Shown here piece by piece: positions 3,712 to 64,000 of a DNA stretch of 64,000 nucleotides; the first letter of the stretch is position 1; each line of letters opens with the position of its first letter. The notes under the pieces were generated by a model. The model saw only the letters and a program-made list of their open reading frames with translations, was not told the origin of the DNA and ran no database searches. The position numbers and the translations under genes are program-made. This DNA comes from Hydrogenophilus sp. (GTDB lineage Bacteria; Pseudomonadota; Gammaproteobacteria; Burkholderiales; Thiobacillaceae). Location of the stretch: the NCBI GenBank assembly GCA_020725265.1, contig DYFK01000002.1:62001-126000 (forward strand). The letters run 5' to 3'.

Positions 3712-3739
3712 CGTCATGCCCGCGCAGGCGGGCATCCAG
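3712..3739. repeat. Palindromic repeat, copy D
   Basis: Same orientation as copy A with one base changed in the loop (GCGCAGGCG against GCGCGGGCG). The similarity to copy A extends about 20 bases upstream (CAAGGMACAGCGCC...CTCCCCCTCTC) and several bases downstream, so A and D bound the block as near-perfect direct repeats. Confidence 0.85.
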
Positions 3740-3749
3740 TGCGCCGGCT

Positions 3750-4037
3750 TCAGAGCAGGTCGGGGTACAAATCGCGCCATGTCGGATTTTCCCGTTCGAT
3801 GATTTTCAGTTTCCACGCGCGAGGCCATTTCTTGATCGCCTTTTCCCGGGCGATGGCGGACATCATGGTTTCGTGCGCCTCGTACCAGACCAGGGTATGC
3901 ACGTTGTATTTCTTCGTGAAGCCGTCGACGAGTTTTTCCCTGTGCTGCCAGACCCGTCTGACCAGGTCGGCGGTAACGCCGACATAGAGCGTACCGTTGC
4001 GGGCACTGGCGAGCAGATACACGCAAGGTTGTTTCAT
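3750..4037 (-). CDS. GIY-YIG nuclease family protein
   Basis: A 95-residue single-domain protein. The GIY-YIG signature is present as CVYLLAS (residues 5-11) and LYVGVT (17-22), followed by the conserved DLVRRVWQH helix and EAHETM with the catalytic Glu. This is the compact stand-alone subfamily, which has no attached DNA-binding domain. The ATG at 4037 is chosen because the family starts with MK-x-x-x-VY; the longer open frame upstream overlaps kdsBC and does not look like protein. The gene directly abuts the palindromic/tandem repeat block. Stand-alone GIY-YIG genes of this type are, from memory, often found next to such repeats. Cellular function is unknown. Confidence 0.88.
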   Translation of the reverse strand: MKQPCVYLLASARNGTLYVGVTADLVRRVWQHREKLVDGFTKKYNVHTLVWYEAHETMMSAIAREKAIKKWPRAWKLKIIERENPTWRDLYPDLL

Positions 4038-4092
4038 CGCCGCTACCGTGACAAGACGCGGGCACGACCGATCCGCGCGCGCGCCACCTGGC

Positions 4093-5361
4093 TCACTGCG
4101 CGATCTTGTGCATCGCGGCGGCGAAGCCGGCGGCGGTTTCGAAGACGTCGCGTCGGCCCTGGGCGGCGAGGATGGCGTCGGCGAGCTCGCGGAAGGCGCC
4201 GGCGCCGCCGGGCAGGCCGAGCACCTGGCTGGCCTGGCGCCTGACGTAGTCGGGCGCGTCGGCGACGGCGAACGACAAACCGCAGACGGCGAACGCCGGC
4301 AGATCGATGCTGTCATCGCCGACGCAGGCGGTTTGCGCCGGCGTGACGCCGGCCGCTTCCATCAGCGCGCGGCAGGCGGTGGCCTTGTCGCCGGCGCCGA
4401 ACCGGGACAGGCCGATGCCGAGGTCGGCGACGCGCTTGCGCAGGGTCGGCGAGTCGCGGCCAGAGAGCACGGCGACGCGCACGCCGTTTTCCTCCAGCAT
4501 GCGGATGCCGAGGCCGTCGCGCACGTGGAAGCGCTTCTGGCATTCGCCGCTGGCGTCGTAGTAGATGCCGCCATCGGTGAGCACGCCATCGACGTCGGTG
4601 ATGACCAGTCGCACGCCGGCCAGATCGGGCGCGGCCGGCGGCGTCTGGCCAGCCATCAGCGCGCGCACGCGTTCCAGGCATTCCGGCGTGTCCACGCCGG
4701 GCCCGGTCGGCGCCACGCGCAGCACGCGCAGGCGGATGCCGGCCGCCATCAGGCGCAGTTGTTCGAGCAGTTCGGCGGTTTCCAGCATCGGCCGGGGCAG
4801 CCCGGAATAACCGGCGAGCACCTCGCGCCGGTAGGCGTAGACACCGACGTGCTTGAGGTAACGGGCGCTGTCCGGATCGCGCGGATAGGGGATCGGCGAA
4901 CGACTGAAATAGAGGGCGTCGCCGGCGTTGTCGAGCACGACCTTGACCGTGTTCGGGTTGCGCGCCTCGGCGGCGTCGATGTCGTGACAGAGGGTGCCGA
5001 CGGCGACCGCCGGGTCGCGCATCGCCTCGACCAGCATGGCCAGGTCGGCCGGGCGCACCAGCGGCTCGTCGCCCTGCACGTTGACGTAGACGTCGGCATC
5101 GACGCGCCCCATCACCTCAACCAGGCGGTCGGTGCCGGAAGGATGCTCGGGCGAGGTCATCACGACCTCGCCGCCAAAGCCGCGCACGGCGGCGGCGACC
5201 CGCTCGTCGTCGGTCGCCACCAGCACGCGCTCGACGCCGGACACCTGGCTGGCGCGCTCGAAGACGTGCTGGATCATGGGCTTGCCGAGGATGTCCGCGA
5301 GCGGCTTGCCGGGCAGGCGGGTGGAGGCGTGACGGGCGGGGATGACGATGACGGCGCGCAT
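4093..5361 (-). CDS. kdsB-kdsC: Fused CMP-Kdo synthetase (KdsB) and Kdo-8-phosphate phosphatase (KdsC)
   Basis: A 422-residue protein made of two complete Kdo pathway enzymes. Residues 1-238 are KdsB (CTP + Kdo to CMP-Kdo): the nucleotide-binding [14 protein letters not shown] (8-21), NVQGDEPL (94-101), and the terminal [13 protein letters not shown]. Residues about 248-418 are KdsC, a HAD phosphatase removing phosphate from Kdo-8-P: motif [10 protein letters not shown] (256-264, Asp256 and Asp258), VLSGRDS (298-304), and the motif IV-like [12 protein letters not shown] (346-357). A short Pro/Ala-rich linker (239-247) joins them. The order is reversed relative to the pathway, where KdsC acts first. 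Elsewhere the two are normally separate genes. Both sets of motifs look intact, so it is probably bifunctional in LPS inner-core synthesis. Confidence 0.95.
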
Positions 5362-26571: not shown

Positions 26572-27702
26572 GTGCGTGGGATAATACCGCGCCCCGCCAT
26601 TCTCCACGAAACCGCCGCCGTGCTGCGTCCCGTCCAACTCGATGAATCGCTGATCGGCCAGCCGCTCCCCTGGGACCTGTACACCGAGTCGGGCGTGCTG
26701 GTCGCCGGCGCCGGCCTGACCATCGGCGACCGCGCGCATTTCGAGAAGCTCAACGCCCGGCCACTGTTCCTGCAAAGCCAGCAGGAACCCCATTCCTCGC
26801 ACCCTCTGGAGCGTCTGAACGCGCTCGCCGAAGTCTGCGAGGCGATCCTGCCGGACCCGGAGCCGGGGGTGTTGCGCGAGGCCCTGCCACGCGTGATCGA
26901 CGATCTGCTGGCGGTGTTCGATACCGACCCGGATGCCTGTCTGGGCTATCCGCGGCTGGCGCGGCTGGCGCGGCCGAGCATCCAGCATGGCCTGCGGGTG
27001 CTGTTCGTCGCCACGTTGCTGGCGCGCGAGCTGGAGTTCGACGATACCGGCCTGCGCGCGCTGGCCGGCGCGGCGCTGACCATGAACCTGTCGGCGCTGG
27101 ACGTGCATGACCGCCTGCTCGATCCGGACAATCCGGTGCCTCACGGCCCGCGCGACCTGCCGCGCGCGCATCCGGCCGACTCGGTGGCCCTGCTGCGGCT
27201 GCACGACATCGACGATCCGCTCTGGCTGGAAACGGTAGCCTGCCACCACGAGAACCTCGATGGCAGCGGCTTTCCGGAAGGACGCTCCGGTGCCGGCATC
27301 GGCGTCGCCGCGCGCATCCTGCGGGTGGCGGACCACTACTGCGCGCGCACCGGCCCGCATCGCTACCGGCCACCGAAATCGCCAGCCTTGGCCTATCGCG
27401 AACTGTTCGGCAGGGAACGCCACCATCTCGACAGCCAGCTCGCCATCCTGCTGCTGCGCCGCATCGGCGCGTATCCGCCCGGCACGCTGGTGCGCCTGGC
27501 CAATCAGGAATACGCCTGCATCGCCCGGCGCGGACGCGGCGGCCGGGCACGCCTGGCGGTCAGTTTCATGGACGGCCGCAAAACGCTGATGGAGCCGCCA
27601 CGAGAACGCAATCTGGAACTGCGCGCCAACCAGCCACGCGCCTTCCTGGAACCCGACCCGGCCTGGCCGAGGATCGACTGGCAAACCCTCTGGGGCTACT
27701 GA
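26572..27702 (+). CDS. HD-GYP domain protein with degenerate HD site
   Basis: Up to 376 residues. An N-terminal domain (DESLIGQPLPWDLYTESGVLVAGAG) precedes a HD-GYP fold. The C-terminal motif is well kept as ACHHENLDGSGFPEG (about 222-236), with RILRVADHYCA after it. The catalytic HDIGK motif, however, is replaced by LTMNLSALDVHD (about 167-178), so metal binding and c-di-GMP hydrolysis are doubtful. It may act as a c-di-GMP-binding or structural relative. The start codon is uncertain: GTG 26572 or GTG 26620, the latter giving MLRPVQLDESL as in related proteins. The stop overlaps the ATG of the thioredoxin gene. Confidence 0.8.
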   Translation: MRGIIPRPAILHETAAVLRPVQLDESLIGQPLPWDLYTESGVLVAGAGLTIGDRAHFEKLNARPLFLQSQQEPHSSHPLERLNALAEVCEAILPDPEPGVLREALPRVIDDLLAVFDTDPDACLGYPRLARLARPSIQHGLRVLFVATLLARELEFDDTGLRALAGAALTMNLSALDVHDRLLDPDNPVPHGPRDLPRAHPADSVALLRLHDIDDPLWLETVACHHENLDGSGFPEGRSGAGIGVAARILRVADHYCARTGPHRYRPPKSPALAYRELFGRERHHLDSQLAILLLRRIGAYPPGTLVRLANQEYACIARRGRGGRARLAVSFMDGRKTLMEPPRERNLELRANQPRAFLEPDPAWPRIDWQTLWGY

Positions 27703-51238: not shown

Positions 51239-54028
51239 ATGCCCGACTACAAAGACACCCTCAACCTCCCCGACACCCCCTTCCCCATGCGCGGCGACCT
51301 CGCCAAGCGCGAACCGGGCTGGGTCGCGCAATGGCGGGAGAAAAAGCTCTACGAGAAGATCCGCGCCACCGCCGCCGGCCGGCCGAAATTCATCCTGCAC
51401 GACGGCCCACCCTACGCCAACGGCGACATCCACATCGGCCACGCGGTGAACAAGATCCTCAAGGACATCATCGTCAAGACCAGGACGCTGGACGGCTTCG
51501 ACGCGCCCTACGTGCCGGGCTGGGACTGTCATGGCCTGCCCATCGAACTGGTGGTGGAAAAGGCGCACGGCAAGGACATCCCCGCCGCGCGTTTCCGCGA
51601 ACTGTGCCGCGAATACGCGGCCAGCCAGGTCGAGCGGCAGAAGGCCGACTTCATCCGCCTGGGCGTGCTGGGCGACTGGGACCGGCCCTACCTGACCATG
51701 GATTACCGCTTCGAGGCGGACATCATTCGCGAACTGGGCAAGATCCAGGCGAATGGTCACCTGTACCTCGGCGCCAAGCCGGTGCATTGGTGCGTCGACT
51801 GCGGCTCGGCGCTGGCCGAGGCGGAAGTGGAATACGAGGACAAGACCTCGCCGGCCATCGACGTCGCCTTCCAGGTCGCGGACCGCGCCGATCTGGCGCG
51901 CCGCCTGGGTCTGCCGGCGGACGCCGATTGTCCGGCCTACGCGGTGATCTGGACGACGACACCGTGGACCCTGCCGGCCAACCAGGCGGTGGCGGTGCAT
52001 GCCGAGTTCGTCTATGACCTGGTTCGCACGCCCAAGGGCATCCTGATCCTGGCGCGCGACCTCGCCGAGGCGGCGATCCAACGCTACGGCTTCGAAGCGG
52101 TCGAGACCATCGCCCAGGTCAAGGGCGCCGTGTTCGAGGGACTGAAACTGGATCACCCGTTCCAGCCTCGCCAGGTACCGGTGATCCTGGCCGACTTCGT
52201 CAGCGCCGACGCCGGCGTCGGCCTGGTGCACATCGCCCCCGGACACGGCCACGACGACTATGTCGCCGGCCTCAAATACGGCCTGGAAGTGGCCAACCCG
52301 GTGGGCGGTGACGGCAAGTTCCACGCTGACACGCCGCTGGTCGGCGGCCAGAGCATCTGGGCCGGCAACAAGACGGTGATCCAGGCGCTGGCCGACAGCG
52401 GCCGCCTGCTGGCGCAGGAGAACATCCGCCACAGCTACCCGCACTGCTGGCGGCACAAGACGCCGATCATCTTCCGCGCCACCCGCCAGTGGTTCATCGG
52501 CATGGACCGCGAGGTGAAGGGGGAAGGGGGAAGGGAGCAGGGCGAGACGCTGCGCGCCATGGCCATGCGCGCGGTCGAGGACACCGAGTTCTTCCCGGCC
52601 TGGGGGCGCGCGCGCCTGGAAGCGATGATGAAGAGCCGCCCGGACTGGTGCGTCTCGCGCCAGCGCAACTGGGGCGTGCCGATCACCTTCTTCATGCACC
52701 GGCAGACTGGCGAACTGCACCCGCGCAGCCAGGAACTGCTGGAGGAGGTCGCGCGGCGCGTCGAACAACAGGGCATCGAGGCCTGGTTCAGCCTCGATCC
52801 GAGGGAATTGCTCGGCGACGAGGCGGACGACTATGAAAAGGTCGGCGACACCCTCGACGTCTGGTTCGATTCCGGCGTCACCCACGCCTGTCTGCTGAAG
52901 GAGCGCGAGGGCCTGGAACATCCCGCCGACCTCTACCTGGAAGGCTCCGACCAGCATCGCGGCTGGTTCCAGTCCAGCCTGCTCACCGGCTGCGCCAGCG
53001 ACGGCCACGCGCCCTACCGCGCCCTGCTCACGCATGGCTTCGTGGTCGACGCCAAGGGCCACAAGATGTCCAAGTCCAAGGGCAACGTCATCGCGCCGCA
53101 GAAGGTGATGGACACCTACGGCGCCGACATCCTGCGCCTGTGGGTGGCGAGCACCGACTACTCGGGCGAACTGACCATCTCAGACGAAATCCTCAAGCGC
53201 GCGGTGGACGGCTACCGCCGCATCCGCAACACGCTGCGCTTCCTGCTCGCCAACACCGCCGATTTCGATCTGGCCAAGCATGAGGTTGCCACCGCCGACC
53301 TGCTGGAGATCGACCGCTACGCGCTGGCGCTGACCCGCGCCATGCAGGATGAAGTGCTGGCCGATTACCGCCAATACAACTTCCATGCCGCCGTGCAGCG
53401 GCTGACCGTGTTCTGCTCTGAGGATCTCGGCGCGTTCTATCTCGACGTATTGAAGGACCGCCTGTACACCAGCGGCGCCGGTTCACTGCCGCGCCGCGCC
53501 GCGCAGACCGCGCTCTGGCATGTCCTGCACACGCTGACCCGCTTGCTGGCGCCGATCCTGTCGTTCACCGCCGAGGAAATCTGGGCGCTGCAATGCAAAT
53601 CCGACAGCGTCTTCCTGAGCCTCTGGCACGAGCCGCCGGCGCCGGCCGACGCCGACGACCTGCTGACACGCTGGAGCCGCCTGCGCGAGCTGCGCGCGCT
53701 GGCGACCAAGCGCATCGAGGAATTGCGCGTCGAAGGCCGGGTCGGCGCCTCCCTGCAAGCGGAGGTGACTATTCACGCCGATGACGCCGATCACGACCTG
53801 CTCGCCGCGCTGGGCGACGACCTGCGCTTCGTGCTGATCACCTCGGCCGCGCGCGTGGTGAGGAGCGATGGCGAAACCCGGGTCGAGGCAACGGCCAGCG
53901 CCCATGAAAAGTGCGAGCGCTGCTGGCATTACCGCGCCGATGTCGGCGCCGACCCCGCCCATCCGGGCCTGTGCGGACGCTGCGTGAGCAACCTGCATGG
54001 CAACGGCGAGGCGCGCGCGCATGCCTGA
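51239..54028 (+). CDS. ileS: Isoleucyl-tRNA synthetase
   Basis: 929 residues, class I. HIGH-type motif in [22 protein letters not shown] (about 55-77), CP1 editing domain ([14 protein letters not shown]), KMSKS ([10 protein letters not shown], about 606-615) and a C-terminal zinc finger CERCWHYR...CGRC. It charges tRNA-Ile and edits valine. After WFIGMDREV (about 420-428) there is a short KGEGGREQ insertion encoded by a GGGGAAG tandem repeat. The ATG at 51239 immediately follows the structured element. Confidence 0.97.
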
Positions 54029-54551
54029 GGCTGGCGTGGCCACCACGCCCGTCGCCGCGCGCGGCCTCGCCTGGTTGTGGCTGGCGGTCGCAGTATTGGT
54101 GCTCGACCAGCTCACCAAGCTGGCGGTCATCGCCCACCTGGAAGCCTATGTCGACGTCATTGCCCTGACCGGTTTTTTCAACCTCGTCCACGTCCACAAC
54201 ACCGGCGCCGCCTTCAGCCTGTTCGCGGATCAGCCCGGCTGGCAACGCTTCTTCTTCATCGGCGTGGCGCTGATCGCCACCATCGTCATCGTCTGGCTGC
54301 TGGCGCGACCGCGCGCCGACGGCCGCGCCTTCCGCATGGCGCTCGCCCTGATCCTCGGCGGCGCCATCGGCAACGTGATCGATCGCGTGCTGTACGGGCA
54401 CGTCGTCGATTTCCTCGACATCCATCTCGCCGGCTGGCACTGGCCGGCATTCAACGTCGCCGACTCGGCGATCACGATCGGCGCGATCCTGCTGATCTGG
54501 CAGTCCTGGCGCCCGCCCGCCCCGGAGCCGGACGACGCGCGCCCGGGATAA
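54021..54551 (+). CDS. lspA: Lipoprotein signal peptidase
   Basis: 176 residues with four transmembrane helices. The catalytic aspartates lie in GNVIDRV (about 117-123) and FNVADSAI (about 145-152), and [12 protein letters not shown] is the conserved third box. It cleaves the signal peptide of lipoproteins after diacylglyceryl addition. The ATG overlaps ileS by eight bases, so the two are coupled. ispH, the usual next gene, is absent here; a chemosensory operon follows. Confidence 0.95.
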
Positions 54552-54645: not shown

Positions 54646-55200
54646 ATGCCGGCCCACCACGCCCCGACGCCGCCCGGCCTCCACCCTCGGACATTTCCTG
54701 ATAGCGCCGATGCTGGCGCGCATCGATATCTGTTCGTCGTCGTCGAAGACCACCGTTTCTGCCTACGACTGACCGACATCGAGCGCCTGCTGCCGCTGGC
54801 GCGTCTGCAACCGGTGCCGAACGGGCCGGACTACCTGATCGGCCTGATGAACCTGCGCGGCGAGGCACTGCCGATCGTCGACCTGGCGCTGCGATTGGGT
54901 ATCCCGCGCCATGCCGGCTATCGGCTCGACGCCCCCATCGTGCTCGCCGATGTCGGCGGCAGTCAGGCCGGGCTGCTGGTCGACGACGTCATCGGCGTGC
55001 GCGCGGTGCCACGCGCCGAAATTCGCGCCGAGGGGCTGTTCCGCGATGGCCTGCCGCCGGTGCTGGGCGCCATCGTCGGCGCCGACGGTACCGCCCTGGT
55101 GCTCGACAGCCTGCGCATCCTCGATCTCGACCTCTCGGGCCTGGCCCAGCCCCTGACCCTCGACGACGAGCTGCTCGCCCTATGCCGCCAGCCCCGCTGA
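54646..55200 (+). CDS. CheW-like coupling protein (WspB-like)
   Basis: 184 residues. A single CheW domain from about residue 26: RYLFVVVEDHRFCLRLTDIERLL, PNGPDYLIGLMNLRGEALPIVDLALRLG, and QAGLLVDDVIGVRAV. It couples receptors to CheA. It is the first gene of the Wsp-like cluster and is directly followed by cheR, as wspB is followed by wspC. It begins with a Pro-rich stretch of about 20 residues that is not part of the domain. Confidence 0.88.
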   Translation: MPAHHAPTPPGLHPRTFPDSADAGAHRYLFVVVEDHRFCLRLTDIERLLPLARLQPVPNGPDYLIGLMNLRGEALPIVDLALRLGIPRHAGYRLDAPIVLADVGGSQAGLLVDDVIGVRAVPRAEIRAEGLFRDGLPPVLGAIVGADGTALVLDSLRILDLDLSGLAQPLTLDDELLALCRQPR

Positions 55201-56714
55201 CCCCACCCATGCTCGGCGCCGCCGGAGAGGAACGGCTGTGCGCCTACGTACGCGCGCGCACCGGCATCCGCATCCTCGACCACCAGATGGAAATCGTCCG
55301 CCGCGTGGTCGCCGATGCCTGCGAACGGTTCGGGCTGGCCGATGCCGAAACCTACCTGACCGCGCTCGAGAACGGCCCCGGCAACTCTCCCGAGCACGAA
55401 CACCTGGTCGCCGGCGTCACCGTCGGCGAAAGCTATTTCTTTCGCGACCAGACCCAGATGGATTTTCTGCGCCGCGTCTGGCTGCCGGAGCTGATCGAGC
55501 GGCGTCGGGACAGCGGCGACCGCCATCTGCGCATCTGGAGCGCCGGCTGTTCGGACGGCCAGGAGCTCTACAGCCTGGCGATCCTGCTCTACGAGCTGCT
55601 GCCAGACATGGACGACTGGAACCTGCACCTGCTCGGCACCGACATCAACACCGCCGCGCTCGGGCGCGCCATCCGCGGCCGTTACAGCGCCTGGTCGTTC
55701 CGGGCGACGCCCGACGACACCCGCGACCGCTACTTCCGGCGCGACGGCCCGCACCACTGGCAGATCTCCCCGCACCTGCGCCGGCGCGTCAAGTTCGCCT
55801 ACCTGAACCTGTCCGAGGACAACTTTCCGTCGATCCTGAGCGAGACCAACGCGCTCGACCTGGTCCTCTGCCGCAACGTCTTCATCTATTTCGACCCGGT
55901 CGTGGTCGGCGCGGTCATGGCCAAGCTGCGCGCCAGCCTGGTGCCCGGCGGCTGCCTGCTGCTGGGCGCGTCGGACCTGCTGGAAAGCGCGGCGCAGGAC
56001 GGCTTCGACCTGCACGCGCTGGGCGGCGCCTTCCACCTGACCCGGCAAGCCGAACCGAGCCGGCCGCCGGCGGACGCGCGCGGCGCGGCGCCGCTCCCCG
56101 AACCAGTCACCACCGACCGGGCCACGCCGGCGACGCCGTCGAAACCCGAGATCGAGCGACCGGCCGCGGTCATGCCGCCGGGGCCGGCTCCCGGTTTCGA
56201 GTACATCATCCAGTTGCTCGGCCGCGAAGCCTGGCGCGAGGCGCTGATCCAGATCGAACACCGCCAGCGCGCCGGCGACGACAGCGCCGTGATCTGGCAA
56301 TTCCGGGCCAAGGCGCTGGCCAACCTGGGCCGCGCGCGCGAAGCCATGCAGGCCTGCGAACACAGCATCGAACGCGACCCGGCCGACAAGCACAGTCATT
56401 TCATCCGTGCCCTGGTGTTCATGGAACTGAACCGGCTGCCAGCGGCCGAGGAAGCCCTGCGCCGCACGCTGTACCTGGATCGCGCCTTCGTCGAGGCGCA
56501 TTACCAACTCGGCATGCTCCAGATCCGCCGCGGTCGTCGCGCGGCCGGTCTGAAATCGCTGCGCAACGCGCTCGACATCGCCGAGCGCGCCGCGCCCGAG
56601 CGACGTCTGCACGATGCCGCCGGCATGAACCACGCGCGCATGGCCGCCATCCTGCGCAATGAGCTGCGCATGTATGAGGACGGTCACGACCGGAAAGGAG
56701 GCCATCGGCCATGA
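55182..56714 (+). CDS. CheR methyltransferase with C-terminal TPRs (WspC-like)
   Basis: 510 residues. The CheR part (about 10-280) has VTVGESYFFRD, WSAGCSDGQELYSLAILLYE (SAM motif), LGTDINTAALGRA and VLCRNVFIYFD. A Pro/Ala linker (about 285-335) leads to tetratricopeptide-like helices (about 340-485, WREALIQIEHRQRAGD, ALANLGRAREAMQAC, AHYQLGMLQIRRGR). CheR-TPR fusions such as WspC methylate the receptor of Wsp-type systems. The start at 55182 overlaps cheW by 19 bases; ATG 55209 is an alternative. Its stop overlaps the next ATG (ATGA). Confidence 0.92.
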   Translation: MPPAPLTPPMLGAAGEERLCAYVRARTGIRILDHQMEIVRRVVADACERFGLADAETYLTALENGPGNSPEHEHLVAGVTVGESYFFRDQTQMDFLRRVWLPELIERRRDSGDRHLRIWSAGCSDGQELYSLAILLYELLPDMDDWNLHLLGTDINTAALGRAIRGRYSAWSFRATPDDTRDRYFRRDGPHHWQISPHLRRRVKFAYLNLSEDNFPSILSETNALDLVLCRNVFIYFDPVVVGAVMAKLRASLVPGGCLLLGASDLLESAAQDGFDLHALGGAFHLTRQAEPSRPPADARGAAPLPEPVTTDRATPATPSKPEIERPAAVMPPGPAPGFEYIIQLLGREAWREALIQIEHRQRAGDDSAVIWQFRAKALANLGRAREAMQACEHSIERDPADKHSHFIRALVFMELNRLPAAEEALRRTLYLDRAFVEAHYQLGMLQIRRGRRAAGLKSLRNALDIAERAAPERRLHDAAGMNHARMAAILRNELRMYEDGHDRKGGHRP

Positions 56715-57313
56715 GCGTCGAATCTTCGAGTCACGCCGGCGCCCACGCGCGTCTACCGGACACGCCACGCGCCCGCGAGGTGCTGCGCGCCCGCGCGATC
56801 CGCCTGGCCAGCGAACGCGATCGCGGCGAGGACGCCGACCGCGGCGAACTGTTCCTGAGCGTTCGCCTTGGCGCTCGCGAGCACTACGGCATCCCCTACC
56901 GGAACCTGGAGGAAATCGCGCGGCCGCGCGGCCTGACGCCGGTGCCGCGCGCGCCCGGGCACATCGCCGGCATCATCAACCGCCAGGGCCGGCTGATCAC
57001 GGTCCTGGCGATGACGCGCCTGATCCCGGTCGATCCCGACCCGACCGCCGACGCGGACACCCGCCGGATCGTCGTCGTGCGCGGCGCCGGCCTCACCGTC
57101 GGCCTGCTGGTCGACGAAGTCCTCGGCAACGACCACTATCATCCGGACCGGCTCGGCGCCAGCCTGCCCTCGCCCGGTCTGCGCGAGCCGGTCCGCGTCG
57201 CCGGCGTGCACGACGGCCGCGTCGCCATGCTCGACATCGAAGCCATGCTGGCCGGGCTGGCCGGCCCCGAATCCGGTCGCGACGAAACCACCCGGGAGGA
57301 GAAAAAACCATGA
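56711..57313 (+). CDS. CheW-like coupling protein (WspD-like)
   Basis: 200 residues. An N-terminal extension with a helical Arg-rich segment (LPDTPRAREVLRARAIRLASE) precedes a CheW domain: REHYGIPYRNLEEIARPR, VPRAPGHIAGIINRQGRLITVLAMTRL, TVGLLVDEVLGND. The extended second CheW is a hallmark of Wsp-type clusters (WspD). ATGA overlaps at both ends. Confidence 0.9.
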   Translation: MSVESSSHAGAHARLPDTPRAREVLRARAIRLASERDRGEDADRGELFLSVRLGAREHYGIPYRNLEEIARPRGLTPVPRAPGHIAGIINRQGRLITVLAMTRLIPVDPDPTADADTRRIVVVRGAGLTVGLLVDEVLGNDHYHPDRLGASLPSPGLREPVRVAGVHDGRVAMLDIEAMLAGLAGPESGRDETTREEKKP

Positions 57314-58413
57314 CCATGAGCACCAGCCACAACCTCCCGGCCGGCGCCGGCCTGGGCAACCAGACGCCCGCGCGCGTCCTGGTGGTGGACGACATGATGA
57401 CCAATCGGGCCCTGATCAAGGCGGTGCTCAACCCCACCGAATTCGAGGTGCTCGAAGCCGCTTCCGGCGAGGATGCCCTGGCACGCATCGCCAATCTGGC
57501 GCCGGACGTGATCCTGCTCGATGTGCTGATGCCGGGCATGGATGGTTTCGAAGTCTGCCAGGCGCTGCGCGGCATCGAGGAATTCCGGCTGCTGCCGGTG
57601 ATCATGCTGACCTCGCTGGGCAGCCCGGACGACGTCGCCCGCGGCATGGAAGTCGGCGCCAGCGACTACGTCACCAAGCCGTTCCACGCCATCGAACTGG
57701 AAGCGCGCGTGCGCGCGGCGGTGGAAAAGAAACGCCTGACCGACCGTCTGGACGACACCGAATCGGTGCTGTTCGCGCTCGCCCGCGTGGTCGAGGCCAA
57801 GGACGGCACCACCGGCGACCACTGCGACCGGCTGTCCCATTTCTCGGTAGTGCTCGGCGAGGCGCTCGGCCTGCCCTGGGACGATCTGGAAGCACTGCGC
57901 CGGGGCGGCATCCTGCACGACATCGGCAAGGTCGCGATTCCGGACGCCATCCTGCTCAAGAAGGGCGCGCTGAGCGACGAGGAATGGCTGATCATGCGCC
58001 AGCACCCGGCCATCGGCGCCTATCTGTGCAGCGCGCTGCGGACCATGCGCCGGACCGTCGACATCATCCGTTACCACCACGAGAAATGGAACGGCGCCGG
58101 CTACCCGGCCGGCCTGGCCGGCACCGACATCCCGCTGCTGGCGCGGGTGTTCCAGGTGGTCGACGTCTACGACGCGCTGGCCTCGGCGCGTCCGTACAAA
58201 CCGGCGCTGCCGCGTGACGAGGTGATCCGCATCCTCACCGAGGAGACCGGGCGCGGCTTCTGGGATCCGGACATCATGCGCGTGTTCCTGGACATCCTGA
58301 AACGCAACCCGGCCAGCCTGACGCTGCCGGCCGAGGCGCGCCTGGGCCGCGACGCCGACATCTTCCACAACATCGTCGGCGACGGCGTGCTCGACTGGCG
58401 CGACCGCCGCTGA
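57310..58413 (+). CDS. Response regulator with HD-GYP c-di-GMP phosphodiesterase output
   Basis: 367 residues. Receiver domain 20-135: RVLVVDDMMTNRALIK, phosphoacceptor Asp in VILLDVLMPGMDGFEV (about 75), and KPF. HD-GYP domain about 155-330 with an intact catalytic motif: GILHDIGKVAIPDAIL and HHEKWNGAGYPAGL, then VFQVVDVYDALASARPYK. It is predicted to hydrolyse c-di-GMP (to pGpG/GMP) when phosphorylated by the CheA at 62540. In canonical Wsp systems this slot encodes WspR, a diguanylate cyclase. The GYP motif has Asn where DG is usual (HHExxNGxGYP). Confidence 0.93.
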   Translation: MTMSTSHNLPAGAGLGNQTPARVLVVDDMMTNRALIKAVLNPTEFEVLEAASGEDALARIANLAPDVILLDVLMPGMDGFEVCQALRGIEEFRLLPVIMLTSLGSPDDVARGMEVGASDYVTKPFHAIELEARVRAAVEKKRLTDRLDDTESVLFALARVVEAKDGTTGDHCDRLSHFSVVLGEALGLPWDDLEALRRGGILHDIGKVAIPDAILLKKGALSDEEWLIMRQHPAIGAYLCSALRTMRRTVDIIRYHHEKWNGAGYPAGLAGTDIPLLARVFQVVDVYDALASARPYKPALPRDEVIRILTEETGRGFWDPDIMRVFLDILKRNPASLTLPAEARLGRDADIFHNIVGDGVLDWRDRR

Positions 58414-58443
58414 GCCGGCTGGCAACCGTAGGAACCACAGACC

Positions 58444-60378
58444 ATGAAGATCGAACAACTCCTCACCGAAGCGGCGGCGGAAAACCTGCTCGCCGGCATG
58501 GGTCTCGATGCCGCCGGCCGCGCCGAACGGCTGGCCTTCATCGACCTGGGCGAAGCCGACGCCGCGCTGCTGCGCGAGCTGGCGCCGGTGATCGAACCGC
58601 ACGCCGACAGCATCGTCGACGGCTTCTACGACAACGTCGCCCGCCAGCCGGAACTGCGCGCCCTGATCGAACGGGTCGGCTCCAGCATGGAACGGCTCAA
58701 GCAGACCCAGCGCGCCTATCTGATGGAACTGTTCAAGGGCGATTTCGGCGTCGACTATTTCGAGCGCCGGCTGCGTATCGGCCTGGTCCACCAGAAAATC
58801 GGCCTGACCCCACGCTGGTACCTGGGCAGCTATTCGGTCTATCTGCGCCTGATCGCGCCGCGCGTGTTCCGTGCCTGGTGGTGGCGGCCGCGTCACGCCC
58901 TGCGCGCGCTGATGGCGGTGGACAAGGCGCTGTCGCTGGACGCGCAACTGGCCATCGACACCTACATCGAGGGCCTGACCGGCAATCTGCGCGCGATGAG
59001 CCTGTCCAAGGACGAGCTGGAGCGCCGCGTCGGCGATTACCAGGCCCTGATCGCCCGCGTCGCCAAGGGCGATCTGACCGAACGCGTCGCCATCGCGGGC
59101 GACGATGACCTCGCCCGCCTGGGCGCCAGCCTGAACGAAATGGTCGACAGCCTGGCGCTGATGACCGGCAAGGTCACCGAAACCAGCACCGCCATCCTGA
59201 CCAGCGTCGAACAGGTGCGCGGCGCCATCGCCGCGCAATCGGCGGGCGCCTCGCAGCAGGCCGCCTCGATCAGCCAGACCACGACCACGCTCGAGGAGAT
59301 CAAGGCGACCTCGCGCCAGAACCTGGAAAAAGCCACCGCGCTCAAGGAAATCGCCGAACGCGCGCGCGCCGAAGGCGACGGCGGACTGGCCGCCGTGGAA
59401 ACCGCCGTGACCGCGATGCGCGACACGCGCGCGCGCATGGAGGGCATCGCCGGCCACATCCTGGAATTGAACGAACGCCTGCAACAGATCGGCGAGATCA
59501 CCGAAAGCGTCGGCGAACTGGCCCAGCAATCCAAGATGCTGGCGCTCAACGCCTCGATCGAGGCGGCCAAGGCCGGCGAGGCCGGGCGCGGTTTCGCCGT
59601 GGTCGCCGAGGAAGTCAAGGACATGGCCGACCAGTCGCGCCAGGCCACCAGCCAGGTCCAGCGCATCCTGGAAGACATCCGCCTGGCCGCCAGCCGCGCC
59701 GTGCGCGCGGTCGAGGAAGGCAACGAAGGCGCCGAACGTGGCGCCGGCCTCGCCGACCGCGCCGGCGAGGTGCTCGGCAACCTCAACCGGGTGATCCACG
59801 ACACCACCCTGGCGGCCCAGCAGATCGTCGCGGCGGTGCGCCAGGAAGCGGCCGGCATCGAACAGATCCGCGCGGCCATGACCGACATCAACCAGGTCAC
59901 CGCGCAATCGGTCGTCGCCACCCGTCAGACCGAGGCGGCCACCGACCATCTGACCGACTACGCCAGCCAGTTGCAGGGCATGGTGCACCGGTTCCGGGTC
60001 GAAAACCTGCATTTCGATTTCGAGATGGCGCGCGCCGTGCACCAGACCTGGGTGGCGCGCATGGACGCCTTCCTGGCCGGACGCGAGGACATCGACGAGC
60101 GCGAGGCGGTCTCCCACCACCATTGCGAACTCGGCCGCTGGTATGACGGCGACGGCTTGAAGCGCTACGGCCACATCGCGGAAATGCAGATCCTGGAGGC
60201 GCCGCATCGCGAACTGCACGAACTGATCCGCGACACCCTGGCCCGCCGCAAGCGTGGCGAGGACATCGACAACGCCGCCGTGCTCGCGCGCGTGCATGAG
60301 CTGTCCAGCCACATCGTCGATCTGCTCTACGCGCTGGAAGCAAAGGCCCGCGCGATCGGCGAGGGCTACCGGTCATGA
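58444..60378 (+). CDS. Globin-coupled methyl-accepting chemotaxis protein with CZB domain
   Basis: 644 residues, without membrane spans. An N-terminal protoglobin domain (about 30-180) has the proximal His in LRIGLVHQKIGLTPRWYLGSYSVYL, the hallmark of globin-coupled sensors, which bind O2, CO or NO through heme. A HAMP-like linker (ALIARVAKGDLTERVAIAGDDD, about 200-230) is followed by an MCP signalling hairpin with SKMLALNASIEAAKAGEAGRGFAVVAEEV. The C-terminal CZB zinc-binding domain (about 510-640) has FEMARAVHQTWVARM, HHHCELGRWYDGDG and LEAPHRELHELI. It should feed soluble heme-gas and zinc or redox signals into CheA. Confidence 0.92.
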   Translation: MKIEQLLTEAAAENLLAGMGLDAAGRAERLAFIDLGEADAALLRELAPVIEPHADSIVDGFYDNVARQPELRALIERVGSSMERLKQTQRAYLMELFKGDFGVDYFERRLRIGLVHQKIGLTPRWYLGSYSVYLRLIAPRVFRAWWWRPRHALRALMAVDKALSLDAQLAIDTYIEGLTGNLRAMSLSKDELERRVGDYQALIARVAKGDLTERVAIAGDDDLARLGASLNEMVDSLALMTGKVTETSTAILTSVEQVRGAIAAQSAGASQQAASISQTTTTLEEIKATSRQNLEKATALKEIAERARAEGDGGLAAVETAVTAMRDTRARMEGIAGHILELNERLQQIGEITESVGELAQQSKMLALNASIEAAKAGEAGRGFAVVAEEVKDMADQSRQATSQVQRILEDIRLAASRAVRAVEEGNEGAERGAGLADRAGEVLGNLNRVIHDTTLAAQQIVAAVRQEAAGIEQIRAAMTDINQVTAQSVVATRQTEAATDHLTDYASQLQGMVHRFRVENLHFDFEMARAVHQTWVARMDAFLAGREDIDEREAVSHHHCELGRWYDGDGLKRYGHIAEMQILEAPHRELHELIRDTLARRKRGEDIDNAAVLARVHELSSHIVDLLYALEAKARAIGEGYRS

Positions 60379-62543
60379 TCCGGATCGAGAACATCCGCAT
60401 GCGCGGCAAGCTGGCCCTGGTGCTGGCATTGCCGGTGCTCGCCCTGCTCCTGTTCTCGGCGAGGCTGATCTGGCAGGAATGGCACAGTCGCGGCGAGCTC
60501 GAATACCTGGCGCGCGCCGGCGAACTGGCCAACGCCATCACCGGCCTGGTGCACGCGCTGCAAACCGAGCGCGGCCGCGGCGTCGCCTATCTGGCCGCCG
60601 GCCAGGGCCACGGCCATGACGCCGAGAGCGTGCGCGCGCTCAAGCAGGCGCGCGACGATACCGACGCCGCCTGGCCGACGCTGCGCCAGGCCTGGGAGCG
60701 CAACGCCGACCAGGGTTTCGACCCGGCCGTTCCGAAACGCCAACAGGCCGGACTGGAACGCCTGCGCGCGCAGATCGACGACGAGAGCATCGACCAGAAC
60801 ATCGTCATCGACGCCTACTCCGAACTGGTCCGGGAACTGCTCGCCGACCAGGTCCAGCTGGTCGGCCATGCCGAGGATCCGGTCATCGTCCGCATGCTCG
60901 ACGCCCAGCGCCTGTTGGCGCTGGCCAAGGAAGCGGCCGGCGCCGAGCGCGCCGAGGGCGGCCGCCTGATCGGCGACGAGGATGCTGGCACGGTCCGTTT
61001 CCACAAGCTCGCGACCGCCCAGTCGACCCTGCTCGACCAGGTCATGATCATGACGCCGGACAGCATCCGGCGCGCCTGGAGCACCGCTCAGCGCGCCGAA
61101 TGCGTGCATCGGCTGGAAACCCTGCGCGGCGCGCTGGCGATGCCGGGCGGCGCGCGCGCGGTCAGCCTCGCCGACTGGTTCGACACCGCCAGCTGCCGGA
61201 TCGAGAAACTGCGCGAGATCGAGATCGCCCTGGCCGAACAACTTCGCGTCGTCATCGACCAACGCATCGAGCAGGGCGCAGCCCATCTGGCCTCGATCCT
61301 GACCCTGACCCTGCTGCCGGTGCTGCCGTCGTTGGCGCTGATCATGCTGGTCGGCCGCAACGTCACCGGCACCACGCGCTGGCTGGTCAACGCCATGCAC
61401 GGCATCGCCGGCGGCAATTTCAACGTATCCCTGCCGCCCCGGAGCCGCGACGAACTCGGTCGCCTGGCGGCCGGTCTCGACGAGCTGCGCGGCCAGCTCG
61501 CCAGCTTCGTCGCCGAACAACAACGCCTGCTCGCCCAGGAACGACACAACGCCGAAATCCTGGAACGGCGCGGCCAGGAAATCCGGCTGTTCGCGCAGCG
61601 CATGGCCACCGGTGACCTGCGCGGCCGTCTGGTCGAAGGCGACGACGCCTTCGGCCAGCTTGCCGCCAGCCTCAACCAGATGGCCGAGGGACTGGCCGGG
61701 CTGGCCGGGCGCGTGCGCGGCGGCAGCATCGCGCTGGCGACCACGGTGCGCCAGATGCAGGGCGCGATCGGCGCGCAATCGTCGGGCGCCAGCGAGCAGG
61801 CCAGTTCGGTCACCGAAACCGTGACCACGCTCGAGCAGATTCGCGCCACCTCCGCGCAGACCCTGGACAAGGCCCAGCGCCTCGGCGAGATGTCGGAAAA
61901 GGCGCGCGCCGAAGGCGAACGCGGCCGCCACGCCGTCGAGGCGGGCATCGCCGGTATCGGCGAGGTCAGCCTCAAGGTCGATGTCATCGCCCACACCATC
62001 CTGTCGCTGAACAAATGGACCCAGCGCATCGGTGAAATCACCGGCGCGGTCAACGACATCGCCCGCCAGTTGCGCCTGCTCTCGCTCAACGCCGCGATCG
62101 AGGCGACCAAGGCCGGCGAAGCCGGCCAGGGCTTCGCCGTGGTCGCCGGCGAGGTCAAGCAACTGGCCGAGCAATCGCAATCGGCGACCGAGCAGGTACG
62201 CCGCATCCTGGAGGAAATCCGGCATTCCACCGATCGCGCGGTGATGGCCACCGAGGACGGCTCCAAGGGCGTGGCGCGCGGGCTGATCCTGGTCGAGAGC
62301 GCCGGATCGGTGATCCGCGGCCTGGAGGAAGTGGTGCGCGACACCAGCATGGCCAGCCGTCAGATCGTCGCCGCCGTGCGCCAGGAAGCCGCCGGCATCG
62401 AGCAGATCGCCACCGCCATGAACGACATCCAGAAGGTGACCGGCCAGTTCGTCGCCGCCACCGAGGAAACCCGCCGCGCCTCCGCCGAGCTTGGCCATCT
62501 CGCCAGCCGCCTGGACGCCACGGCCGGCCTCTACCGGACATGA
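60375..62543 (+). CDS. Methyl-accepting chemotaxis protein with NIT domain
   Basis: 722 residues. TM1 (about 12-30, LALVLALPVLALLLFSARLI) and TM2 (about 303-325, LILPVLPSLALIML-like) bracket a periplasmic helical bundle with the NIT signature ALQTERGRGVAYLAAGQG (about 61-78), the nitrate/nitrite sensing class. HAMP segments (RWLVNAMHGIAGGNFNVSLPP) and an MCP domain (LRLLSLNAAIEATKAGEAGQGFAVVAGEV) follow. It is coupled to its neighbours by ATGA overlaps. It probably reports nitrate, nitrite or a related anion to the operon's CheA. Confidence 0.85.
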   Translation: MIRIENIRMRGKLALVLALPVLALLLFSARLIWQEWHSRGELEYLARAGELANAITGLVHALQTERGRGVAYLAAGQGHGHDAESVRALKQARDDTDAAWPTLRQAWERNADQGFDPAVPKRQQAGLERLRAQIDDESIDQNIVIDAYSELVRELLADQVQLVGHAEDPVIVRMLDAQRLLALAKEAAGAERAEGGRLIGDEDAGTVRFHKLATAQSTLLDQVMIMTPDSIRRAWSTAQRAECVHRLETLRGALAMPGGARAVSLADWFDTASCRIEKLREIEIALAEQLRVVIDQRIEQGAAHLASILTLTLLPVLPSLALIMLVGRNVTGTTRWLVNAMHGIAGGNFNVSLPPRSRDELGRLAAGLDELRGQLASFVAEQQRLLAQERHNAEILERRGQEIRLFAQRMATGDLRGRLVEGDDAFGQLAASLNQMAEGLAGLAGRVRGGSIALATTVRQMQGAIGAQSSGASEQASSVTETVTTLEQIRATSAQTLDKAQRLGEMSEKARAEGERGRHAVEAGIAGIGEVSLKVDVIAHTILSLNKWTQRIGEITGAVNDIARQLRLLSLNAAIEATKAGEAGQGFAVVAGEVKQLAEQSQSATEQVRRILEEIRHSTDRAVMATEDGSKGVARGLILVESAGSVIRGLEEVVRDTSMASRQIVAAVRQEAAGIEQIATAMNDIQKVTGQFVAATEETRRASAELGHLASRLDATAGLYRT

Positions 62544-64000
62544 CCCGACTCGACCCGAACCTGATGCGGCAGTTGCTGGAGACCTTCCGGATCCAGCTCG
62601 GCGAACGCTTGCAGGCGATCACCGATGGTCTGCTGGCGCTGGAACGGACCGCCGACGCCGACGAGCATGGCCGGCTGCTGGAGGCGATGTTCCGTGACGC
62701 CCACAACGTCAAGGGCGCGGCGCGCGGCGTCGGTCTGGAAAACAGCGCCGAACTGGCGCATGCCCTGGAAAGCCTGTTCGCCACGCTCAAACGGGTCCGC
62801 GAGCGGCCGGCCGAGCATCTGGTCAACCTGTGCCTGGCCGCCATCGATGCGCTGCCACCACTGGTGGAGGCGGAAGCCACCGGCCAGCCCGGCGACGGAC
62901 AGGCGCATGCGTTGATGCAGCGCCTGCGCGCGGCGCTGGCGACGCCGGCAAGTGAAACCGGGGCATCCGGAGCGCCCACGCCGACCTCGAATCCAGCGCC
63001 ACCCGCCGCCCTCACGCCACCGCCGGCCCCGATCGCCGGCGGCGACAGTATCCGGCTGCCAGTCCAGCGGCTCGACCGCATCGCTGATCTGGCCGAGGAA
63101 TTGCAGACCGCCAAGATCCGGCTCGACGACCACTACCAGGCCAGCCGGCGCCTCCAGGAAATCTCCAGCCAACTGCTGCCGCTGCTCGAACGCCTCGGCG
63201 GCGACGGCGGCCCGACGGCGCGGCGGGCCGCCCCGGACGCCGAGCAGATGGCGGAATGCCTGGATCTGGCCGCGGAACTGGACGAACTGGCCGGCTCGCT
63301 GCGCATCGCCATTCGCGCCACCGTCTCGCACCTGCGCCCGCTCGCCAGCGCCCTGCGCGACGACGCCCGCGGCCTGCGCATGGCGCCGGCCTCGACCGTG
63401 CTGGCGCCGATGTCGCGCGGCCTGCGCGACATCGGCCAGCGCCTGGGCAAACAGGTCGAGCTGACCACCTCCGGCGAACGCATCGAAATGGACCGCGCCA
63501 TTCTCGACGCCCTGCGCGATCCGCTCACGCATCTGCTGCGCAACGCCATCGACCACGGCATCGAAGCGCCGGCGGTCCGGCGCGCGCGCGGCAAACCGGA
63601 TAGCGGACGAATCGGCATCCATCTGAGTCACGAAGGCGGCATGGTCCGGATCGCGATCGAGGACGACGGCGCCGGCATCGATCCGCAAGCGCTACGCGCG
63701 GAAGCAGTCCGCCGCGGCATCGTTGGTGCCGGCGAACTGGCGGCCATGAGCCAGACCGAACTGCTCGACCTGATCTTCCGTCCGGGTTTTTCCACGCGCG
63801 GCCAGGTCAGCGAGATTTCCGGGCGTGGCGTCGGCCTCGACGTGGTCCGGGTCAACCTGCAAACCCTCAACGGCCGGGTCACGGTCGACAGCACGCCCGG
63901 CGAGGGCACCCGGTTCCTGCTTTCGGTGCCACTGACGCTGGCCGGCGACCACGGCCTGTTCGTGCAGGCGGCGGGGCAGGTGTTCGCGCTGCCCAGCCAG
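62540..64000 (+). CDS. Chemotaxis histidine kinase CheA (WspE-like), 3' end outside window
   Basis: 487 codons are present. The Hpt domain has the phospho-accepting His55 in RDAHNVKGAARGVGL. A Pro/Ala linker (about 137-170) replaces a P2 domain. Dimerisation helices and the HATPase domain follow: HLLRNAIDHGIEAP (N box, about 333-346), IEDDGAGIDPQAL (G1), GRGVGLDVVRVNLQ (G2, about 431-444) and TPGEGTRFLLSVPLTLA. The start of the CheW-like regulatory domain reaches the edge. WspE-type kinases often end in a receiver domain, which would lie beyond 64000. The ATG overlaps the MCP stop. Confidence 0.93.
   Translation, partial: MTRLDPNLMRQLLETFRIQLGERLQAITDGLLALERTADADEHGRLLEAMFRDAHNVKGAARGVGLENSAELAHALESLFATLKRVRERPAEHLVNLCLAAIDALPPLVEAEATGQPGDGQAHALMQRLRAALATPASETGASGAPTPTSNPAPPAALTPPPAPIAGGDSIRLPVQRLDRIADLAEELQTAKIRLDDHYQASRRLQEISSQLLPLLERLGGDGGPTARRAAPDAEQMAECLDLAAELDELAGSLRIAIRATVSHLRPLASALRDDARGLRMAPASTVLAPMSRGLRDIGQRLGKQVELTTSGERIEMDRAILDALRDPLTHLLRNAIDHGIEAPAVRRARGKPDSGRIGIHLSHEGGMVRIAIEDDGAGIDPQALRAEAVRRGIVGAGELAAMSQTELLDLIFRPGFSTRGQVSEISGRGVGLDVVRVNLQTLNGRVTVDSTPGEGTRFLLSVPLTLAGDHGLFVQAAGQVFALPSQ

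Follow-up and report, generated by a model that had tools for sequence, protein, structure and literature searches.

Here we describe an 11-gene chemosensory operon that begins in a 64,000-nucleotide stretch of DNA from Hydrogenophilus sp. (the window, G000:C31:62001-126000, from a genome of 3.3 Mb in 36 contigs) and runs past its end. By gene content the operon is a chemosensory system of the alternative cellular function (ACF) type and not a Wsp system. We favour, with moderate confidence, the reading that it has a non-motility role in the control of cyclic di-GMP (c-di-GMP) turnover: gas cues and NIT-domain cues would pass through the kinase CheA to a response regulator (RR) carrying an HD-GYP phosphodiesterase (PDE) domain, and a PAS-GGDEF cyclase would work alongside it.

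A preliminary description of positions 54646-64000 had read the gene order as cheW, cheR-TPR, cheW, a REC regulator, two methyl-accepting chemotaxis proteins (MCPs) and cheA. All seven genes were found on the forward strand at the coordinates it had given, with matches above the Pfam gathering cut-offs for CheW, CheR, TPR, REC, HD_5, Protoglobin, NIT, MCPsignal, CZB, Hpt and HATPase_c. It had also proposed reading the sequence past 64000 for cheB, and the adjoining part of the contig (L006, which matches the window exactly in the overlap; window position = L006 position + 53999) does hold cheB, followed by a protein we call pseudo-P1-REC (an Hpt-like domain fused to REC), cheC and a PAS-GGDEF gene. 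An operon end at the window's cheA was therefore rejected, and the complete operon has 11 genes. The features are as follows.

53997-54551, forward strand: lspA, upstream flank of the insertion site
54646-55200, forward strand: cheW1, coupling protein in the WspB position (PF01584, E 3.9e-26)
55182-56714, forward strand: cheR-TPR, methyltransferase with TPRs in the WspC position (PF01739, E 7.7e-45, and TPR matches)
56711-57313, forward strand: cheW2, coupling protein in the WspD position (PF01584, E 2.3e-22), with an ATGA overlap on either side
57310-58413, forward strand: REC/HD-GYP RR, predicted c-di-GMP phosphodiesterase (PF00072, PF13487)
58444-60378, forward strand: soluble MCP with protoglobin, HAMP, MCP signalling and CZB domains (PF11563, PF00672, PF00015, PF13682)
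60375-62543, forward strand: membrane MCP with a NIT domain (PF08376, PF00672, PF00015)
62540-64000, forward strand, open at the window edge with its end at equivalent position 64768: cheA-REC hybrid kinase (Hpt, HATPase, CheW, REC)
64883-65923, window-equivalent, outside the window (ATG at L006 10884): cheB
65925-66731, window-equivalent, outside the window (L006:11926-12732): pseudo-P1-REC, 268 aa
66736-67362, window-equivalent, outside the window: cheC
67359-68273, window-equivalent, outside the window: PAS-GGDEF cyclase gene
68331-68771, window-equivalent, outside the window, after PAS-GGDEF: fkbp
68768-69703, window-equivalent, outside the window, after fkbp: ispH

Within the window there are six junctions, four of which are 4-base ATGA overlaps, the other two being a 19-base overlap and a 30-base gap; this is short of the "nearly all" of the preliminary description, whose picture of a tightly packed single unit is nonetheless borne out by the junction coordinates. 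Beyond the window, cheC and the PAS-GGDEF gene overlap by 4 bases, and the largest gap inside the operon (114 bases) lies 5' of cheB. The operon is not a chance arrangement, since its gene order recurs in other genomes and families.

The Wsp core runs cheW, cheR-TPR, cheW. The operon has this core together with a CheA bearing a C-terminal REC, a CheB and a multidomain c-di-GMP regulator, all of which it shares with WspABCDEF-R of Pseudomonas, and to this extent the Wsp-like label first given to it was apt. Wsp membership was rejected, because the regulator is REC/HD-GYP and not a REC/GGDEF WspR, and the receptors are a globin/CZB protein and a NIT protein and not a 4HB WspA; in addition, pseudo-P1-REC, CheC and PAS-GGDEF are extra, and the receptors and RR lie within the cluster before cheA. 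The traits of ACF systems are a CheR-TPR fusion, a multidomain RR and a CheA-REC without P2 (PMC3447774, PMC10782961), and all were found here: the RR combines REC with HD_5, and CheA consists of Hpt, HATPase_c, CheW and a C-terminal REC, with no P2 match in a domain search, a form of CheA that is frequent in ACF systems and not exclusive to them. The phosphorylatable His of the CheA P1 domain is conserved in 10/10 aligned sequences.

The protein in WspR's place carries REC (PF00072) and HD-GYP (PF13487) domains, as the preliminary description had it. Its receiver residues D27/D28/D71/T101/K123 and its HD-GYP residues H171/H203/D204/K207/H232/H256/H257/D285, with the GYP motif, are invariant in 10/10 aligned RRs and were seen in 12/12. 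In a phmmer alignment to the c-di-GMP enzyme PmGH, residues H189, H221, D222, H250, H276, H277, D305, D183, K225 and D308 are matched by counterparts, and seven of the eight metal ligands listed for PmGH (PMC4159591) are kept. Of the 11 proteins, it is the RR that varies least within the genus, with 78-81% identity in the alignment, compared with 73-75% for CheB and 56-57% for CheA (five comparable sequences). Weak PADLOC matches of the RR cover the REC region only and were rejected as support. Elsewhere in the window, at 26977-27441 (G000:C31:88977-89441), there is another and weaker HD_5/HD-GYP match (63 bits), and relatives of the RR at 52-53% identity stand beside cheA of a different cluster type at L070:9276-18601 and L073:3017-6799.

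Both inputs named in the preliminary description, a soluble globin receptor and a NIT receptor, are confirmed by Pfam. The globin MCP (PF11563, E 8.5e-39) has no transmembrane segment by hydropathy and aligns with HemAT 1or4; its proximal-His segment RIGLVHQKIGL, the His of which is presumably the heme ligand, is kept in 12/12. This receptor additionally carries a C-terminal CZB zinc-binding pattern (H533, C561-x-L-G-x-W, H588, H592), in keeping with the 3His/1Cys core and CX(L/F)GXW motif of CZB domains (PMC8262984). It is about 645-650 aa long in the genus and in L089, and 524 aa in L091-L093, where it ends before CZB, so CZB is probably a lineage-specific second input. In the NIT MCP the NIT domain lies between hydrophobic segments at residues 14-32 and 308-326 and is predicted to be periplasmic.

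At the far end of the operon, CheC keeps its E..N motifs in both halves (9/9), and the PAS-GGDEF orthologues keep RxxD and GGEEF in all seven covered (L006, L040, L042, L045, L089, L092, L093). These alignment counts exclude rows with wrong matches, namely L038 for PAS-GGDEF and L038 and L041 for CheA. The PAS-GGDEF protein passes the general GGDEF model, and its gene is present in 11/11 loci that extend past cheC (L006, L040, L042, L045, L220, L187, L188, L219, L091, L092, L093; in L091 only the first half of the gene lies in the stretch). The earlier prediction that the phosphorelay lowers c-di-GMP thus describes one arm of the system and omits the cyclase that ends the operon.

Another component is the pseudo-P1 protein that follows cheB. 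Its N-terminus gives an Hpt-like match of 26.0 bits against a cut-off of 24.6, with REC behind it, and the phospho-His position is occupied by Asp in the motif HQEFDSLHG, unlike a functional Hpt or CheA P1 domain. A protein with the motif HQE[FL]D[ST] after cheB is REC-fused in the window's genus and in L187 and L188. In seven other loci the domain is free: it measures 127 aa in L091, and in the remaining six the loci are these.

L190:14645-15064, free pseudo-P1, 139 aa
L193:10820-11242, free pseudo-P1, 140 aa
L194:15492-15905, free pseudo-P1, 137 aa
L196:4689-5099, free pseudo-P1, 136 aa
L197:17532-17960, free pseudo-P1, 142 aa
L189:921-1325, free pseudo-P1, 134 aa

The motif was found in 15 of the 17 globin loci that extend past cheB (L006, L040, L042, L045, L046, L187-L190, L193-L197, L091); it is missing from L092 and L093, where a free REC alone stands in this place. 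Among the 38 further loci retrieved with cheR-TPR, none has a protein of this kind with the HQExD[ST] motif (0/38), the one occurrence, in L250, lying inside a CheB-like receiver; the motif had been defined on the globin loci before this wider search, so a diverged pseudo-P1 elsewhere would escape it. An AlphaFold2 model of the N-terminal part is a helical bundle (mean pLDDT 88.8), and its eight best PDB matches comprise entries for CheA P1 together with a single chemotaxis core signalling unit (8c5v). The best, 1i5n, has a TM score of 0.77 and a probability of 1.00 with an E-value of only 0.016, and none reaches 0.001; with the full pseudo-P1-REC model, the best 50 Foldseek matches listed look like hits on the receiver half. 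Profile comparison with the operon's own CheA P1 gave a weak match (probability 39.8, E 3e-4) in which Asp42 aligns with the phospho-His, and the free pseudo-P1 proteins had no Pfam match at E 0.001 in the four tested (L190, L193, L194, L196). From the models, pseudo-P1 is predicted to have the CheA-P1 fold, and it might act as a competitor or docking element. We know of no counterpart as a component of chemosensory arrays.

Within the genus the operon behaves as a module. Among 61 neighbourhood genomes, the RR is present at 78-100% identity in 8 of 23 of the same genus and in 0/38 others. In all eight copies lspA lies directly upstream of cheW1 and the order is kept as far as the contigs extend; fkbp-ispH follows in four of the five copies with a covering stretch (L006, L220, L223, L224), and in G019 (L222) fkbp-ispH was not found within about 7.9 kb downstream. 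The 15 same-genus genomes without the RR all have ileS-lspA-fkbp-ispH contiguous, as do three of four genomes from other genera, the fourth (G023) being without an fkbp match. This pattern suggests that the 11 genes are gained or lost together.

The conserved order that the preliminary description had proposed searching for was found in several genomes and families. Each locus is counted once (L085-L090 and L094 duplicate contigs already in the set). G436 and G479 of family f215 (L188, L187) have the identical 11 genes in identical order, with no lspA alongside in the stretches seen. At 60% identity, the RR stands first in the cluster in G505 (L189, L219), HGW-Gammaproteobacteria-1 (L091), UBA3588 (L092) and a Rhodocyclaceae metagenome-assembled genome (L093). 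In family f247 (G978, G855, G913 and G999; L190-L193) the order is RR, cheW, cheR, cheW, globin MCP, cheA and cheB where the contig reaches, only the end of the RR lying in the stretch from G999. There are thus at least 18 REC/HD-GYP loci of the cluster type, in at least four families (f1, f215, f15, f247), and every one has a globin MCP. The RR search led to 14 of them (globin MCP in 14/14); the four of f247 came from the globin profile and are not independent support. The NIT MCP is present in 11/18. Free RECs measure 144 aa in L093 and 119 aa in L091 and L092, and L193 has REC/HD-GYP and REC/GGDEF in one cluster.

Profile searches extended this picture. The RR profile at E 1e-100 matched 8/399 genomes of the order, six of them in this cluster type, and at E 1e-85 it matched 12 of 369 genomes of the class, of which only the window's own is in the cluster type within the stretches; among the matches listed in a scan of contigs, the nearest named records (L085-L094) are metagenome-assembled genomes labelled Pseudomonadota, Gallionellaceae, Hydrogenophilales and Betaproteobacteria. 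A globin-HAMP profile at E 1e-40 matched 11 of 398 genomes of the phylum, nine with a che cluster and two (G825, G457) with none. The window's cheR-TPR at E 1e-45 matched 47 places in 41/388 genomes of the phylum, with at most three candidates per genome scored, so this is no full census. Nine are globin loci already found. The other 38, several of them in short stretches and not each with a confirmed TPR part (cheB in 28/38), had a globin in 0/38 and an HD-GYP protein in 2/38 by tblastn domain search: a REC/DUF3369/HD-GYP protein (REC below its gathering score) beside REC/PAS/GGDEF (L247:1827-3380, 3736-5058), and a REC/HD-GYP protein divergent from cheW (L258:7327-8376). HD-GYP regulators thus stand next to ACF-like clusters in more than one case, as the listing of cd00077 in PMC3447774 implies, and such phosphodiesterase outputs may have several origins.

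Under the reading we favour, binding of O2, CO or NO to the globin would set CheA autophosphorylation, as HemAT would suggest, and so would a periplasmic nitrate- or nitrite-like cue at NIT, a ligand suggested by the family name only. The receptor signal would reach CheA through CheW, as in the family at large, with CheR-TPR and CheB as the adaptation pair. Given the linkage of the genes, CheA-P would then phosphorylate the REC of the HD-GYP protein, which might raise c-di-GMP hydrolysis, although the sign of this regulation could be either; CheC would remove the phosphate, and pseudo-P1-REC and CheA's own REC would serve as phosphate sinks or competitors. PAS-GGDEF would make c-di-GMP in parallel, a pairing suggested by co-occurrence, and could be restrained by the HD-GYP protein much as RpfG restrains WspR in Lysobacter (PMC9758175). 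The net effect would be that respiratory-gas status tunes a local c-di-GMP pool.

A number of observations weigh against this scheme. Phosphotransfer, ligand, gas binding, enzyme activity and sign of regulation are all deduced from sequence, and with 62 GGDEF matches genome-wide the effect on the global c-di-GMP pool could be small. The regulator was first described as apparently intact, which is true of seven metal ligands and the GYP motif, but the eighth ligand of the PmGH trinuclear centre, E185, is Thr167 in the phmmer alignment, and an E185 Ala mutant of PmGH has markedly reduced activity; RpfG also lacks this ligand and is thought to be binuclear, so the ligand is not essential to the HD-GYP family (PMC4159591). 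With the other ligands kept, the RR is predicted to be a binuclear and probably active enzyme. In the f247 loci past cheB (L190, L193) no cheC and no REC-fused pseudo-P1 were found, and the GGDEF proteins there are of another kind, REC/GGDEF in L193 and GAF/PAS/GGDEF/EAL in L190. G795, G798 and G801 (L194-L196) have the core with an adjoining REC/PAS/GGDEF/EAL gene and no RR/HD-GYP in the stretch, and G819 (L197) has the core and a NIT MCP with no REC/HD-GYP RR, the regulator beside its core (L197:18164-19972) consisting of three RECs and an adenylate/guanylate cyclase domain. Since these globin clusters exist, HD-GYP is by gene content not an obligate output. A tree was built of 49 RRs, 17 cluster-type and 32 outside; L102, whose translation was not clean, was left out, the program warned of long branches, and the outside RRs include L070 and L073, which have other cheA genes nearby. 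In this tree the window's genus and f215 together contribute ten cluster RRs that group in one clade with support of 99/96, and the seven others branch beside a clade of 17 non-cluster RRs. The cluster RRs are thus not one clade and at least two label changes are needed, which indicates that the RR has moved between settings and can have other partners; L070 and L073 have a cheA alongside the RR relative and no globin match in the stretch.

Some of these observations would suit an output driven by the cyclase, with PAS-GGDEF mainly raising c-di-GMP as in Wsp and HD-GYP acting as a brake or adaptor instead of an enzyme. The cyclase is constant in the 11 loci past cheC, the same end of the cluster holds REC/GGDEF (L193) or GAF/PAS/GGDEF/EAL (L190) in relatives, HD-GYP lacks one metal ligand, and RpfG represses biofilm without PDE activity by inhibiting WspR (PMC9758175). 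We nevertheless think this unlikely: HD-GYP keeps the other seven ligands and GYP, and a domain search of PAS-GGDEF found no REC or CheW match through which CheA could control it directly. The preliminary description had raised the case of a GGDEF response regulator downstream as the real output; what lies there is this GGDEF protein without a REC match, although the relative L193 does have REC/GGDEF. That HD-GYP acts on another nucleotide, such as 3'3'-cGAMP, is scarcely credible, for although the cGAMP phosphodiesterase 5z7c is among its best structure matches, PmGH (PMC4159591) matches somewhat better and the cyclase encoded with it passes the model for GGDEF domains in general.

The operon might also serve motility chemotaxis, partly or wholly, with the pseudo-P1-fused REC (or the free CheY-like REC of L091-L093) as the real CheY, CheC as its phosphatase and the flagellar motor as target. 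FliM is present in the genome, CheC is usually a CheY-P phosphatase, and the NCBIfam model closest to the operon's CheC is CheY-P phosphatase CheC, at a score below its cut-off; the free RECs of L091-L093 would fit as well. The genome holds four further CheA-like genes, one of them at a C12 locus with cheR (without the TPR part), cheB, cheW and an MCP as neighbours, and the ACF traits given above point away from motility, so that we consider this improbable. We regard it as very improbable that the REC/HD-GYP protein is only a passenger in the operon and takes its phosphate from a hybrid kinase encoded elsewhere. In favour of this, the nearest relatives from outside the cluster type group together and have different neighbours, and some related globin clusters lack such a protein; it is kept, however, in at least 18 loci of at least four families with cheR, cheW, globin MCP and cheA where the contig reaches, and of its 11 class-level outside relatives six show an MCP within the stretch, with a cheA as well in two of these (L070, L073).

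Beyond the preferred reading of a c-di-GMP turnover system, we tentatively raise the possibility that the operon belongs to an unrecognised Pseudomonadota family of gas-sensing arrays with a fixed core (cheW, cheR-TPR, cheW, globin MCP, cheA-REC, cheB, pseudo-P1) and exchangeable outputs: REC/HD-GYP with PAS-GGDEF, REC/HD-GYP with REC/GGDEF, REC/PAS/GGDEF/EAL, or REC/nucleotide cyclase. The Asp-for-His P1-like signature might then be a competitor for kinase or receiver or a docking brake, and in the HD-GYP branch one kinase might set both c-di-GMP arms. In the part available of a review of c-di-GMP sensing, c-di-GMP-linked chemosensory systems act through the cyclases WspR and SadC (PMC8846402). 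If true, the pairing of a cognate REC/HD-GYP with a linked cyclase would make this a chemosensory system that sets c-di-GMP synthesis as well as breakdown, with a heme gas sensor as its input, and one sensory core with varied outputs would offer a natural series on how chemosensory kinases gain targets. The globin-receptor core that appears with different outputs and the P1-like protein with Asp in place of its phospho-His are more novel than the HD-GYP swap.

A literature search that covered neither subscription papers nor preprints nor supplementary tables brought up, among the matches listed, no account of a system composed in this way and no paper joining REC-HD-GYP with CheA. The domain cd00077 is, we take it, of the HD family. 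A 2012 survey of cheR-TPR clusters lists REC fused to cd00077, a metal-dependent phosphatase (PMC3447774). By itself the HD-GYP swap is therefore not new, and the early view of the system as undescribed must be narrowed to its new parts: the globin core, the constant cyclase partner and pseudo-P1, none of which, with such regulators treated as protein phosphatases, appears in the accessible part of that survey. P. aeruginosa has a CheA-dependent phosphodiesterase, Pch (PA5017), that lowers c-di-GMP, but it is an EAL enzyme without REC that associates with the flagellar CheA and is not itself a cognate RR (PMC3861689), whereas the enzyme here is REC/HD-GYP. The pair PA2573 (an MCP) and PA2572 (REC/YN-GYP) of the same species likewise joins an MCP and an HD-GYP-type regulator in one pathway; PA2572 has the non-canonical YN-GYP and no detectable c-di-GMP degradation, and no che cluster is described in the part available (PMC3411652). 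In Lysobacter, too, a chemosensory system meets a REC/HD-GYP protein as a cyclase-phosphodiesterase pair: RpfG binds and inhibits WspR and biofilm is repressed without its PDE activity, but RpfG belongs to the RpfC two-component system, so the complex spans two systems (PMC9758175). On the input side, the protoglobin sensor of the globin MCP is shared with HemAT, and a globin/PAS MCP cluster of different composition, without a nearby CheY, has been reported (PMC6194562). Control of HD-GYP by a globin is shared with the globin-coupled HD-GYP protein of Vibrio fluvialis (PMC10882959); here, in contrast, globin and HD-GYP lie on different proteins, which a CheA phosphorelay is predicted to connect.

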